Below are positions 10,705 to 15,577 of a stretch of DNA of 64,000 bases, piece by piece. The notes below the pieces were generated by a model that saw only the letters and a list, made by a program, of their open reading frames with translations, did no database searches and was not told the DNA's origin. A program made the translations under genes and the position numbers. The stretch covers positions 62,001-126,000 of the forward strand of contig MPNJ01000006.1 in the NCBI GenBank assembly GCA_002238965.1, in the 5' to 3' direction. This DNA is from Nitrospinae bacterium bin107. GTDB lineage: Bacteria; UBA8248. Each line of letters begins with the position of its first letter. The stretch's first letter is position 1.

Positions 10705-11898
10705 ATGGATTTGTCTACGGGCAAGGATGTGGCCGGCATCAGGCAAGGCTGGCCGATTATCCTCGCGTGTTTTCTCACCATATTCACCGCCTACACCACG
10801 GCCTTCATCCTGGGTCCGATGCTCGACGACATGGGCCGCGACCTGGGCCTCTCCCTCTCGGCCATGGGGCAGCTGGCGGCCATCACCTTCATTCCCTGGG
10901 GGATAGGCGCGCCCCTGCTGGCGCCCATCTCGGATCGCTACGGCCGAAAGTACGTCATTCTCGCCGGGGTGGCGGGTCTCTCGCTCTCCAGCATCGCCAC
11001 CTCGTTCGCGGACGGGTATCTCGCGGTGGCGGTCTGGCGCTTCATCGCGGGGCTGAGCGGCGCGCTCGTTCCGCCCACAGCGGTGGCGGCGATCGGGGAC
11101 AACTTCACGGGACGCGTGCGCGGCCTCGCCATCGGTTTCGCGACGGCGGGCGTGGCCATGGGCCTGCTCGTCGGGGTCCCGAGCGTGGCCTTTCTGACGG
11201 ATTACCTGGGCTGGCGCAACGCGCTTTGGATATCGGGCGTGTTCGGCCTGACGCTCTCCCTTTACACGCTCCGCTCACTGCCATCCGGGAGCCAGACCGA
11301 CGCGCCCTCTTCCTATCTAGCCAGCTTCACCTGGATGCGCCAGGGTGCCTCATGGCTCCTGCTGAGCGGAAACGTCACCGAGCGACTCATGACGTCCGCC
11401 TTTCTGACATACGTCGCCGTATTTCTGATGCGCACCTTCGAGGTTTCTCTTTCCACCGCGGGGAGCCTGCTCACGGCGATGTCCGTGGGCGCGCTCATCG
11501 GCGGCCTCCTGGGCGGGGCGCTGGCGGGCGTGAGAAGGCGCTTTCTCATCATCACCGCCCTTGTCCTGCTCCAGGGAGAACTCCTGGCGTTTCACTTCTC
11601 GGGGCTGGGCTTTCTCACGCTCACGATCGCGGCGGGCTTTCTCTTCTCGTTCTTCAGCCATCTGAGCCGTCCCGCCGTCATGGACGACCTCATATCGATC
11701 GCCCCGCAGGCGCACGGCGCCATCATCGGCTTCTATTCGACGAGCAACCAGGTCGGCCTCTTCCTGGGAGCGTCCCTGGGCGGGTTCGCCATTCAGTGGG
11801 GCGGCTTCGGGGCGCTCAGCTGGCTCGTCCTGGGCGCGGCGGTCCTGGGCGGGGGGTTCTATGGGGCGAGCGCGTGGGTATTTCGGGGAAGAGGGTAA
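10705..11898 (+). CDS. MFS transporter
   Basis: A 397-aa major facilitator with about 12 hydrophobic helices. The loop 2-3 signature APISDRYGRKYVILAG (about residues 73-88) is intact, with Asp and two Arg positions, and the central cytoplasmic loop is near residue 195. CCAGGAG precedes the ATG. It closes the cluster of cupin, MmgE/PrpD, CoA ligase and crotonase and is the likely importer of the substrate handled by those enzymes; the substrate class is unknown. A sharp change to AT-rich DNA follows within about 40 bp. Confidence 0.88.
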   Translation: MDLSTGKDVAGIRQGWPIILACFLTIFTAYTTAFILGPMLDDMGRDLGLSLSAMGQLAAITFIPWGIGAPLLAPISDRYGRKYVILAGVAGLSLSSIATSFADGYLAVAVWRFIAGLSGALVPPTAVAAIGDNFTGRVRGLAIGFATAGVAMGLLVGVPSVAFLTDYLGWRNALWISGVFGLTLSLYTLRSLPSGSQTDAPSSYLASFTWMRQGASWLLLSGNVTERLMTSAFLTYVAVFLMRTFEVSLSTAGSLLTAMSVGALIGGLLGGALAGVRRRFLIITALVLLQGELLAFHFSGLGFLTLTIAAGFLFSFFSHLSRPAVMDDLISIAPQAHGAIIGFYSTSNQVGLFLGASLGGFAIQWGGFGALSWLVLGAAVLGGGFYGASAWVFRGRG

Positions 11899-11956
11899 GC
11901 TCTTCTTCACCCGATTGATCGTAGCAAACAATTTTATACGTTATCGCGCATACACA

Positions 11957-11984
11957 ATTTATATACTTGATAAAGTATATAAAT
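11957..11984. promoter_or_regulatory. Perfect palindromic operator candidate 1 of hipBA
   Basis: A 12-bp arm ATTTATATACTT is repeated as a perfect inverted copy (AAGTATATAAAT) around the 4-base centre GATA. It covers the candidate -35 box (11967-11972) of the hipBA promoter, exactly where an autorepressor would bind. HipB-type antitoxins are known to bind palindromes in their own promoter. Confidence 0.65.
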
Positions 11985-11996
11985 ATAATATACAAT
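11967..11996 (+). promoter_or_regulatory. Candidate sigma70-type promoter of hipBA
   Basis: TTGATA (11967-11972) and TACAAT (11991-11996) each match their consensus hexamer at 5 of 6 positions, with an 18-bp spacer. Transcription would start near 12003, about 55 bp before the hipB ATG. Two palindromes overlap the -35 box and the start region, which suggests autoregulation. Confidence 0.55.
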
Positions 11997-11999
11997 ATA

Positions 12000-12022
12000 G
12001 CGTATATTTAGATATTATACGC
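12000..12022. promoter_or_regulatory. Palindromic operator candidate 2 of hipBA
   Basis: GCGTATA and its perfect inverse TATACGC flank a 9-base spacer and lie over the predicted transcription start. A further imperfect copy of the half-site (TATACG ... CGCATA) occurs at 11935-11952. Multiple spaced half-sites fit cooperative binding by a HipB dimer. Confidence 0.55.
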
Positions 12023-12056
12023 TTTAAGGTATGTTATTTTTGAGGAGGAATAGAAG

Positions 12057-12314
12057 ATGAATGAGCTTGTTACCCGCTCGGAAAAGCAACTGGGAGAGGC
12101 TCTGCGCCGGGTCCGCAAACAGCGTGGTTTCACGCAGGCCGGACTCGGCGAAAAAATCCACATGCGCCAAGCCACCATCTCCAAGCTGGAGGGTGGCTCG
12201 TCGACAAGCCGCCTTCATACTCTGATGGCGTCTCTCGCTGCGCTTGATCTGGAACTGGTCGTGCGTCCCCGCCGCCGGAGCACAGGCGATGAAATTGAGG
12301 AGTTGTTCTCATAG
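12057..12314 (+). CDS. hipB: HipB-like XRE-family antitoxin
   Basis: An 85-aa helix-turn-helix protein. The XRE fold runs about residues 11-66, with the recognition region TQAGLGEKIHMRQATISKLE (about 26-45). It is expected to bind the palindromes upstream of it and to neutralise the HipA kinase encoded next. A perfect-quality AGGAGG lies 8 bases before the ATG. Its stop codon TAG (12312-12314) overlaps the proposed ATA start of hipA. The AT-rich promoter contrasts with the GC-rich surroundings, typical of a mobile toxin-antitoxin module. Confidence 0.88.
   Translation: MNELVTRSEKQLGEALRRVRKQRGFTQAGLGEKIHMRQATISKLEGGSSTSRLHTLMASLAALDLELVVRPRRRSTGDEIEELFS
12297..12313 (+). promoter_or_regulatory. 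Ribosome-binding site that implies an ATA start for hipA
   Basis: GAGGAG (12297-12302) is followed after 8 bases by ATA at 12311-12313. The codons that follow encode ARRRAYIPLAVY, the usual N-terminal strand of HipA proteins. The first in-frame ATG, at 12350, has no ribosome site. ATA here looks like either a rare start codon or a mutated ATG. Confidence 0.6.
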
Positions 12315-13615
12315 CCAGACGACGCGCCTACATACCGCTGGCCGTCTATATGAACGGCCGTCTCGTGGGGTGGTTGCGCAAGGCGGCGAGCGGAGCCATC
12401 GATTTTCGCTACGATGATAGATGGCTCGCCCGGGAACACGGTTTTTCGGTTTCGCTCTCCATGCCGCTGCGTGAAGACGCTTATATCGGCGACCCGGTCG
12501 TCGCCGTGTTCGACAATCTACTCCCGGACAATTTCGACATCCGAGACAAAATGGCCGCGCGAACCCAAGCGAATGGGTCGGATACCTTCAGTCTGCTGAG
12601 CGCGGTCGGGCGTGACTGCGTCGGCGCCATGCAGTTCCTCCCGGAAGGAGAAGACCCCGGCCCTGCCGGGTCGATCGATGGGCACACTATCGATGATGAC
12701 GGGATTGGCAAGATACTCGCCAATCTGGGCACTACCCCGCTCGGTGTCGGCGTGCATGAAGCATTCCGCATCTCGCTCGCCGGCGCGCAGGAAAAGACCG
12801 CCCTGCTGTACTGGAAAAACGAGTGGCGCGTACCGCACGGCACGACCGCGACGACCCATATCCTCAAACCGGAAATCGGACGGCTCGGCAACGGCGTCGA
12901 CCTCTCGCTTTCCGTCGAGAACGAGCATCTTTGCATGCGGCTCATCTCCACCCTCGGCCTGCCTGCGGCCGACACCCGCATGGAGACGTTCGGTGAGAAG
13001 AAAACGCTGGTCGTGGAGCGTTTCGACCGGCTCTGGGCGAAAGACGGACGACTATTGCGCTTGCCGCAGGAAGACTGCTGCCAGGCGCTTTCCATGCCCT
13101 CGGCCAAAAAATACGAGAGCGATGGCGGACCAGGGCTTCCCGACTTGTTCGATTTGTTCATGGGCAGCGACGATGCAACACGCGATCGCAAGATGATCAT
13201 GAAGGCGGCCGTCGTCTTCTGGCTTCTCGCCGCCATCGACGGCCATGCCAAGAACTTCAGCCTCTTCCTTCATCCGCACGGCGGATTTTCATTGACGCCC
13301 TTTTATGACGTGATGTCGATTCAACCGAACTTCGATGCGCACCAGCTCCGGCAACGCGATATGAAGATGTCCATGGCGGTCGGCAAGAACCGCCATTACG
13401 CCGTGAACGAAATCATCCCGCGCCATTATCTGCAAACGGCTGCGGCCTGCAACATGGGAGAAAGCGTCGTGCGGGAGATATTCGAAGAACTTCTCGAACG
13501 AGGCGAAGCGGCGATATCGAGCGTGGAGAACGATCTCCCACCTGGTTTCCCCGAATCGCTATTCATGAGCGTTACGGTAGGTTTTCGCCGACGCCTGCGT
13601 CTGCTGGAGGGTTGA
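12311..13615 (+). CDS. hipA: HipA-like serine/threonine kinase toxin (apparent ATA start)
   Basis: A type II toxin kinase; characterised HipA proteins phosphorylate glutamyl-tRNA synthetase and cause growth arrest. Seen here are the N-terminal HipA_N region with YMNGRLVGWLRK, the Gly-rich ISLAGAQEKTALL loop, HILKPE with the ATP-binding Lys, VVERFDR, the QEDCCQALSMPSAKKYE segment, the catalytic AIDGHAKNFS loop and FYDVMS, the metal-binding Asp. Length from ATA 12311 is 434 aa, as usual for the family; from ATG 12350 it loses 13 residues of the first beta strand. No frameshift or stop interrupts it. It is operonic with hipB. Confidence 0.9.
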   Translation: MARRRAYIPLAVYMNGRLVGWLRKAASGAIDFRYDDRWLAREHGFSVSLSMPLREDAYIGDPVVAVFDNLLPDNFDIRDKMAARTQANGSDTFSLLSAVGRDCVGAMQFLPEGEDPGPAGSIDGHTIDDDGIGKILANLGTTPLGVGVHEAFRISLAGAQEKTALLYWKNEWRVPHGTTATTHILKPEIGRLGNGVDLSLSVENEHLCMRLISTLGLPAADTRMETFGEKKTLVVERFDRLWAKDGRLLRLPQEDCCQALSMPSAKKYESDGGPGLPDLFDLFMGSDDATRDRKMIMKAAVVFWLLAAIDGHAKNFSLFLHPHGGFSLTPFYDVMSIQPNFDAHQLRQRDMKMSMAVGKNRHYAVNEIIPRHYLQTAAACNMGESVVREIFEELLERGEAAISSVENDLPPGFPESLFMSVTVGFRRRLRLLEG

Positions 13616-13724
13616 GCGTTAACATCATGACGCAATGCCCGGAAGAAAAAAACGGTAGGGCGGTTCGCGAACTGCCCCAACGAAATCAACAAAACCTCGA
13701 ACGTAACAAACCAGAGACATGGTA

Positions 13725-13748
13725 GGTACAGGCCCCTGTGCCTGTACC
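13725..13748. repeat. Intergenic hairpin (9-bp perfect arms)
   Basis: GGTACAGGC and its perfect inverse GCCTGTACC enclose a 6-base loop in the 250-bp space after hipA. There is no T-run, so it is a poor terminator for hipA. Just beyond it, 13769-13783 reads GGTTGTTGAAAAAGC, 13 of 15 identical to the left end of the MITE at 19874, so this spacer may hold the remains of a related element. The rest of 13616-13865 shows no gene. Confidence 0.5.
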
Positions 13749-13865
13749 CGGAAAGGACAACCACGGCGGGTTGTTGAAAAAGCCGGCACCGGGATCGGAC
13801 GCATTGGACGCTCCCTCATCGGTCTCGTCTAAAGCAGTTCCTCCTTCATCAGTCGGAACTGACCC

Positions 13866-15577
13866 CTAATTCTTCACGGCGTCCTTGCGCCTGGGCTCGG
13901 GGAAGACGTCCTGATCGATAATCACGTCGACGACGGCGGGGCCATCTTCCTTGAGGGCCTGCGCGTAGACGTCTTCAAGTTCTTCGGGGTCCTCCACCCG
14001 GAAGCCCGCCGCGCCGAAGACCCGGGCATATTCGTCGAACCTGGGGTTGCCGATGGCGTCGGCGATGTAGCGCCCCTCATAAAAATGCTTCTGGTAGGCC
14101 CGTTCGGAGCCCAGGTTGAAGTTGTTCAGGATGACGCAGACGGTCGGCAGGTTCTCGCGCATCGCGGTCTCAAGCTCCGCCCCGTTGCACAGGAACGCGC
14201 CGTCGCCGCTGATGGTGACGACCTTCTGGTGCGGACGCGCCAGCTTGGCTCCCAGCCCCAGGGGATAGCCGATGCCGATGGCCGCCAGGTCCTGCGGAGC
14301 CACGAAACTCCTGGCCTGATCGAAGCGTTGATATTCATACACATAGCCCGCCGCGCTGCCCGCGTCGTTCGTGATGATGGTGTTCTCGGGCAGGACTCTC
14401 GCGAGAGCCATCTGCGCGCGCCTGGGGTCGATGGGCTTTCCGCCGTATTCCAGCGCCCGTTCGCGGTGTTTTTCCTGCGCGTCGCGCACCGCCGCGGCCT
14501 CCGCCCGCCACGCGGGGCGCTCAACCCCCTCGCCCAGCCCGCCGAGCACGGCCCGAAGCGCAAGTCCCGCCTCCGCGTTCATGCCCACCTCGGTGGCGAA
14601 GTTCCGGCCGATGTTGTGCGGGTCCACGGCCGCGTGGATGAGTCTGGCACTCCCGAAGAAACCGGGCCGCAGGAACGTGGTCGAGTGCGCGAGCCTGGTG
14701 CCGACGGCGAACACGACGTCCGCCTTCTCGAAAAGCGCGTGCGCCTCGGGGAGCGTTCCGCGTCCGATGGAACCCAGGAACAGGGGGTGTCCGTTCGGGA
14801 CCACATCGTCCCTGCCGGTAGAAGTCATGATGGGCGCGTCGAGCGCTTCGGCCAGCGCTATCAGCTCGCCGCTCGCCTCATCCCAGAGCACGCCGCCGCC
14901 TCCGATGAGCAGGGGCCGCTCGGCGGATTTAAGCAGCGCCGCCGCCCGCGCGGGGGGGGGGCCCCGCGGGGGGTTTAAGCCGCCCCCCCCCCCCCGCCGC
15001 CCCCCCGGGGGGGGGGGGGGAGCCGCGCCCGCACCTGATGCGCCGGAGCGCCGTTCTCGGAATACTCCGCCGTCTCGTTCAGCACGTCGCGCGGCAGGTC
15101 GACGTGCACGGGGCCGGGTACGCCGGAGGTCGCCACGTGACAGGCCTCGTTGATGACGTCGAAGGCGCGCTCGGGTTTTCTCACCTGAACCGACCACTTC
15201 ACCATGGGAGCGAACATGGCGATCTGGTCGAGTTCCTGGGTGGACTCGCGAAAGGTGTCTTTCATCATGGGGGCGCCGGTGATGACCAGCACCGGGCTTT
15301 GCGCCATCATCGAATGCGCCACGCCGGTGACGAGGTTCGTGGCGCCAGGGCCGTTGGTCGCCATGCACACGCCCACCTCTCCCGTGAGCCGGGCATAGGC
15401 GTCCGCCATCAGGGCGGCGCTCTGTTCGTGGCGCACCGTGAGGAAAGAAATGTCGTCCCGGCCGTACATGCCGTCCAGTATCTCGATCATGCACGAACCC
15501 GCCATGCCGATTACGTGCCTCACCCCCAGTTTCGCGAGCGCATCCGCCACCGCGTGTCCAGCCGTCATGCTCACCAT
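13866..15577 (-). pseudogene. ThDP-dependent acetolactate-synthase-like enzyme, reading frame broken in a G/C homopolymer tract
   Basis: The protein is collinear with acetolactate synthase-type thiamine diphosphate enzymes but sits in two frames. The N-terminal part (15577 down to about 15022) has GMAGSCMIEILDG, the ThDP-activating Glu in RHEQSAALMADAYARLTG and NGPGATNLV. The C-terminal part (about 14950 to 13866) has the central Rossmann domain (LLIGGGG), the ThDP motif GDGAFLCNG...NN (about 14115-14200) and a normal tail. The join falls in 14951-15020, almost only G and C runs, where about 10-20 linker residues also appear lost. AGGAG precedes the ATG at 15577. A sequencing or assembly fault in the homopolymers is the likeliest cause; the enzyme may be intact in the organism. 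Confidence 0.8.
14951..15020. repeat. Low-complexity G/C homopolymer tract inside the ThDP enzyme gene
   Basis: Within 70 bases there are runs of 10 G (14952-14961), 13 C (14983-14995), 7 C (15000-15006) and 14 G (15007-15020), separated by short GC words. Nothing like it occurs elsewhere in the window. It coincides with the frame change and replaces a normal inter-domain linker, so it is probably an artefact of base calling or assembly. Confidence 0.8.

Follow-up and report, generated by a model that had tools for sequence, protein, structure and literature searches.

The 64,000-nucleotide stretch of DNA analysed here (the window) carries two adjacent plus-strand genes, hipB and hipA, whose features are listed in Table 1. 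The hipB product scored above the Pfam cut-offs for HTH_31 (36.6 bits) and HTH_3, and also matched NCBIfam couple_hipB and PRK09726 HipB at scores below the cut-offs of those models, so that a small HTH antitoxin gene lies directly 5’ of the toxin gene. A consensus scan of positions 11800-13900 returned 2 promoter-like sites against 0.8 expected, and the AT-rich region 5’ of hipB in Table 1 is the probable promoter/operator of hipBA.

Table 1 Features of the hipBA locus (positions in the window).
Feature	Position	Strand	Basis
hipBA-bearing stretch, missing from the corresponding site of sister genomes G001 and G003	11895..13656	.	blastn, window against both sites; edges accurate to within a few bases
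AT-rich region with promoter-like sites and inverted repeats	11967..12018	+	consensus scan, repeats
hipB Shine-Dalgarno GAGGAGG, 8 nt 5’ of ATG 12057	12042..12048	+	sequence
hipB antitoxin gene, 85 aa, ATG to TAG	12057..12314	+	ORF; Pfam and NCBIfam matches
hipA Shine-Dalgarno GAGGAG, within the coding end of hipB	12297..12302	+	sequence; duplex energy
ATA, proposed hipA start codon	12311..12313	+	position aligned with family starts
hipA toxin kinase gene, 434 codons and stop	12311..13615	+	Pfam, E. coli HipA structures, purifying selection
hipB stop TAG, overlapping the proposed hipA start (ATAG)	12312..12314	+	sequence, ORF
First in-frame hipA ATG (residue 14), without Shine-Dalgarno	12350..12352	+	CTG in both sister species

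Relative to hipB, hipA lies in the -1 frame, which stays open between 12299 and 13615, and the codons after ATA 12311 translate as ARRRAYIPLAVYMNGR. Its product exceeded the Pfam cut-offs for both Couple_hipA (93.6 bits) and HipA_C (170.5 bits) and was matched by E. coli HipA structures over residues 10-423 (E 3.4e-95), with E. coli residue 4 facing residue 10 of the window protein. The stretches A157-A164 (AGAQEKTA), D310-S317 (DGHAKNFS) and Y332-D333 are invariant in all 16 aligned sequences; these are the kinase motifs, and they are kept here. In gene order and domains the locus resembles hipBA of E. coli, in which HipA is the kinase and HipB the antitoxin. The rest of the window genome (G000; 4.37 Mb, 60 contigs, 95.92% complete) contains one further HipA-like match, which is very weak (E 4.7e-5).

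At the junction of the two genes, an 8-nucleotide spacer (12303-12310) separates GAGGAG from ATA, and hipB and hipA overlap by 4 nucleotides. A preliminary description of this DNA had placed GAGGAG 8 bases before an ATA that overlaps the hipB stop; its coordinates are confirmed, and the family alignments described below put the start at this ATA. The calculated energy of pairing between the Shine-Dalgarno (SD) sequence and the anti-SD is -9.3 kcal/mol before ATA 12311 vs -1.5 kcal/mol before ATG 12350, in agreement with the same description, which had seen no ribosome site at that ATG. An energy of -9.3 was reached by 1.6% of 5000 random window positions, and -12.9, the value found in two relatives, by 0.02%. 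Thus both the window and the relatives have a strong SD at a workable spacing before a near-cognate codon. Among the 26 junctions compared, eight of which are genome loci placed by a motif starting with M or V, the window is tied with three others for ranks 3-6. The pattern GGATCACCTCCTT, which we take to be the 16S tail, is present in all seven genomes of the genus.

Candidate starts were scanned at residues -3 to 23 with the codons ATG, GTG, TTG, CTG, ATA, ATT, ATC, CTC and ACG. The first canonical in-frame codons of the window are ATG 12350, GTG (residue 19) and TTG (22), and the in-frame candidates at residues 8-22 have an SD of -2.6 kcal/mol or weaker in the window and relatives alike. 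CTC at residue 0 of the window has an SD of -8.8 kcal/mol but is two bases off AUG, and we rejected it as a start.

The position of the start in the family was determined from homologues. A tblastn search with HipA returned 1675 plasmid records, all less than 60% identical, and 16 plasmid loci chosen from the 40 best of these were compared together with genome loci. Thirteen of the 16 have their annotated hipA start opposite ATA; the remaining three are L034, where an IS interrupts the gene and the annotation lies elsewhere, and L046 and L048, which carry no annotated hipA. Five of the seven plasmid homologues shown (Microvirga, Methylobacterium, Aminobacter, Phyllobacterium and Caulobacter) read TTCTG ATG GC, with hipB ending in TTC TGA and hipA starting at the ATG. 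In a local survey of homologues from outside the genus, the codon facing ATA is ATG (22) or GTG (1) in all 23 that align to residue 1, although several of these are near relatives of one another and the query had M for I at residue 1, which favours alignments that reach this residue. The list comprised 40 non-genus loci in all. In 15 of the remainder, which are more distant, an ATG or GTG is found at residues 4-7, and the alignments of the last two begin too late for the codon to be judged (L023 at residue 30 and the IS-disrupted L034 at 41). The survey database was built without the window itself (L001), L002 and L009; L006 and L007 were included and gave no row. Aligning the HipA N-termini of relatives, the check proposed in the preliminary description, therefore places the family start exactly at ATA. 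The usual, though not defining, ATG or GTG at this position is replaced by ATA in the window and by ACA in two relatives.

These two relatives are the only ones of the six other genus genomes with strong HipA matches: G006 (locus L003) and G005 (L004), 83% and 81% identical, respectively. The G006 locus is also represented by L010 (WTGD01000031.1), which has the same first 700 nucleotides as L003. The match in G002 is weak (E 1.6e-5), and in the three other genus genomes there is none. In both relatives the junction reads TTCTG ACA GC vs TTCTC ATA GC in the window, and a CTG at residue 0 shares its last two bases with the hipB stop TGA, giving a 4-nucleotide overlap, CTGA. All three genomes lack an ATG, GTG or TTG around the family start. 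The codon facing ATG 12350 is CTG in both relatives, and their canonical in-frame codons are TTG 41, TTG 51 and GTG 66, with the first ATG at 81. The SD of the relatives, GGAGGTG, is the strongest of the 26 junctions at -12.9 kcal/mol; the hipB codon that completes it, read by eye, is Val, and at the plasmid loci it is Asp in 13 of 15 junctions, with one Asn and one not lined up. The lack of a canonical start is thus kept in all three genus genomes that carry the operon, with the codon differing, and because these three are the only carriers and two of them share the junction exactly, they provide limited independent evolutionary evidence.

Because the third-position A is common to the window and the relatives, the most parsimonious order would be a single change from ATG to ATA before the two lines split and one further change in each of them afterwards. 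On the side of the relatives ATA would have changed to ACA, and on that of the window CTG to CTC, after which hipB would no longer end at the former TGA but one codon later, at TAG. The operon also shows a presence/absence polymorphism, being absent at the same site in G001 and G003, a comparison limited to genomes with both flanking genes (G002, G004 and G006 lack one or both). The adjacent transporter, presumably an MFS protein from a reading of its sequence, is 90% identical to the window in G001 vs 85% in G005; because G001 is by this measure nearer to the window than G005, hipBA was probably lost in G001.

The hipA gene evolves under purifying selection. Between the window and the relatives we obtained dN of 0.10-0.12, dS of 0.50-0.52 and dN/dS of 0.20-0.23, and the adjacent transporter gene has a dS of 0.50 between the window and G005. 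Because hipA dS matches that of this neighbour gene, hipBA descended vertically with the chromosome and kept its function after the split. Between the two ATG-less relatives, codons 2-433 have 28 nonsynonymous vs 43 synonymous changes (p 1e-11), and all three genomes keep hipA free of internal stops. When the window is compared with each relative, codons 2-40 are constrained (p 0.008 and 0.005), with p 0.03 and 0.1 for codons 41-80 and p 0.2 for codons 2-13 alone. Between the two relatives, codons 2-40 differ by only one nonsynonymous and one synonymous change (p 0.42), and p is 0.056 for codons 2-80. Because the signal in codons 2-40 is seen only in the pairs that include the window, it does not by itself place the N-terminal constraint in the ATG-less relatives, where selection on the first few codons is likely but unproven.

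Several other explanations could account for the missing start codon. A HipA that is 13 residues shorter and begins at ATG 12350 would use the first canonical codon of the window frame, but we consider this improbable given the poor SD there and the CTG that both sister species have at this codon, their next canonical codons lying far downstream. Such a start would also cut the first strand region, as the preliminary description had argued: residue 14 lies past the onset of the E. coli HipA match at residue 10, and R3, L10 and V12, all 5’ of this ATG, are invariant in 16 of 16 aligned sequences. It is similarly doubtful that hipA has been silenced, with its start lost and its frame not yet decayed. 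The lost start codon and the two sister genomes that do without the operon altogether would agree with silencing; however, dN/dS is about 0.2 at a dS of 0.5, the frame is free of internal stops in three genomes, and selection on the whole gene persists between two relatives that both lack the ATG. Least probable, in our judgement very much so, is a HipB-HipA fusion made by -1 ribosomal frameshifting at the end of hipB. The hipA gene does lie in the -1 frame, both frames are open together for 16 nucleotides in the window and 19 in the relatives, and an SD-like stretch is also present in this overlap, but none of the three sequences has an X XXY YYZ heptamer at the nine codon positions at the end of hipB, and re-pairing there would be poor. 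As none of the three thus offers a slippery site ahead of the hipB stop, we rejected a programmed frameshift.

The window letters themselves might be wrong, either through an ATG misread at 12311-12313 or through an error at 12310 alone, where a G would restore CTG and TGA and make the junction resemble that of the relatives. Base 12310 sets the window apart from the relatives and comes from an assembly with a probable error about 2.6 kb away. This is a stretch at about 14945-15020 that is rich in G/C homopolymers, is unaligned in four genus relatives, and breaks the frame of a minus-strand gene (about 13866-15577) that we take, from reading its sequence, to encode a TPP-dependent enzyme; it is probably an assembly artefact. 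Nonetheless, we give a letter error little weight. The two other genomes likewise carry A as the third base and lack an ATG, and a corrected 12310 would still leave hipA without one. Because three genomes lack the ATG, one misread base is insufficient as an explanation, and a one-base error hiding an ATG is unlikely. This largely excludes one of the three options in the preliminary description, an error at 12313, and its other two, a mutated start that tunes the toxin down and a genuine ATA start, merge into a single non-AUG start that is expected to be weak. That description, made from this DNA alone, could not see that the relatives have ACA at this position with CTG one codon earlier; what the genus has in common is therefore the lack of a canonical start together with a strong SD and a 4-nucleotide overlap, rather than ATA as such.

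RNA structure was also considered as an explanation and rejected, since the fold of the window junction is ordinary (z -0.35, 64 of 200 shuffles) and 206 of 1000 shuffles equal its local hairpin. In the SD zone the probability of pairing is 0.71 in the window and 0.70 in the relatives, within the range of 0.55-0.89 for nine homologues with ATG. For the relatives (L010:316-425 and L004:2730-2839, minus strand) the fold of the junction RNA is unusually stable (z -3.19 and -3.33; 1 of 200 shuffles as good in each case), with the SD paired to a downstream stretch.

We think it likely, on balance, that the hipBA genes of this Nitrospinota-related genus form an intact type II toxin-antitoxin operon in which the toxin is translated from a non-AUG start. 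The same degree of confidence applies to weak initiation of hipA at ATA in the window and CTG in the relatives, across a 4-nucleotide stop/start overlap and coupled to hipB. Ribosomes that finish hipB, or that are drawn by the strong SD in its end, would initiate hipA at a near-cognate codon overlapping the hipB stop (ATA in ATAG, CTG in CTGA). Weak initiation would then yield HipA at a small fraction of HipB. We infer the use of these codons, their weakness, the coupling to hipB and the low toxin output as a selected trait from the sequence. That the window and relatives would use different codons counts against the proposed start. A broader hypothesis, which we put forward tentatively and hold at somewhat short of even chances, is that the whole lineage swapped the ATG of the toxin for near-cognate codons, compensated by an enhanced SD in the C-terminal codons of the antitoxin. 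The 4-nucleotide overlap would have been kept even though each boundary shifted by a codon (CTGA to ATAG), and the toxin dose would be set by the quality of a start codon read mainly by ribosomes leaving hipB.

The ratio of antitoxin to toxin decides between a silent operon and growth arrest. If the proposed start is correct, hipA would be a natural case in which toxin dose is controlled by start-codon quality. Gene callers limited to ATG, GTG and TTG would truncate such toxins, by an expected 13 codons for the window HipA and 40 or 80 for the relatives judging from codon positions, and others may be hidden.

Non-AUG starts and hipBA are each already known. The closest precedents come from S. 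aureus, where AUA starts are documented for infC, ccpN and citZ and extended SD motifs are predicted for infC, ccpN and cvfC1, the last with an AUU start (PMC13009471). With reporters of cvfC1, ccpN and citZ, output in poor medium was about 10% of that from AUG, and ccpN reached up to 30% in rich medium (PMC13009471). These genes are similar to the window in having a near-cognate start, with an extended SD predicted at three of them, and in ccpN and cvfC1 the non-canonical start is kept across species, as it is in this genus (PMC13009471). In contrast, the gene described here is a type II toxin gene that overlaps its antitoxin stop, and its putative start codon varies between species. The infC gene is present in all seven genus genomes and provided no second non-AUG example, having an in-frame ATG in the three viewed (G000, G006 and G005).

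Among toxins, a review states that some of type I are limited by non-AUG starts (PMC8167048), and the start of B. subtilis yonT is given as GUG (PMC6562991). Like the window hipA, these would have their synthesis restrained by a poor start codon; however, the GUG of the example counts among the canonical alternatives, and type I systems, unlike hipBA, rely on an antisense RNA (PMC8167048, PMC6562991). The orphan Rhs toxin of Salmonella, from what its authors call a type II module, has an internal CTG start, and, as proposed here for hipA of the relatives, it is a toxin with a cognate antitoxin that is translated weakly from CTG (PMC7043789). It is made from an internal transcript of an rhs gene rather than from hipA, and the sections of that paper used here contain no overlap with an antitoxin stop (PMC7043789). 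CUG makes up 0.024% of bacterial starts and gives 0.86% of AUG output, a rarity and weakness that argue against the proposed CTG start in the relatives (PMC11497404).

The geometry of the junction also has parallels, as the NTGA overlap is reported as the commonest spacing of coupled genes (PMC12548453; see also PMC6728339). Termination-reinitiation at ATGA or TGATG likewise involves a 4-nucleotide overlap of stop and start and an SD in the upstream gene, whereas the start here would be CTG or ATA and the window stop is TAG, not TGA (PMC6728339, PMC12548453). For hipA itself, we found no AUA or CUG start in the open-access literature searched, as far as the sections consulted extend. Constructs with a GTG start codon are listed for hipT of E. 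coli O127 (PMC6581861). Compared with hipBA of E. coli, all three genus genomes that hold the operon differ in having no ATG, GTG or TTG at the toxin start.

Two further observations were made among the HipA homologues. At L005 and L009 (G035) the homologue is split into two adjacent open frames of 73 and 381 codons, which may reflect either a frameshift or a divided hipA of the hipS/hipT type. The homologue at L037 (G407) has one in-frame TAG inside the match.
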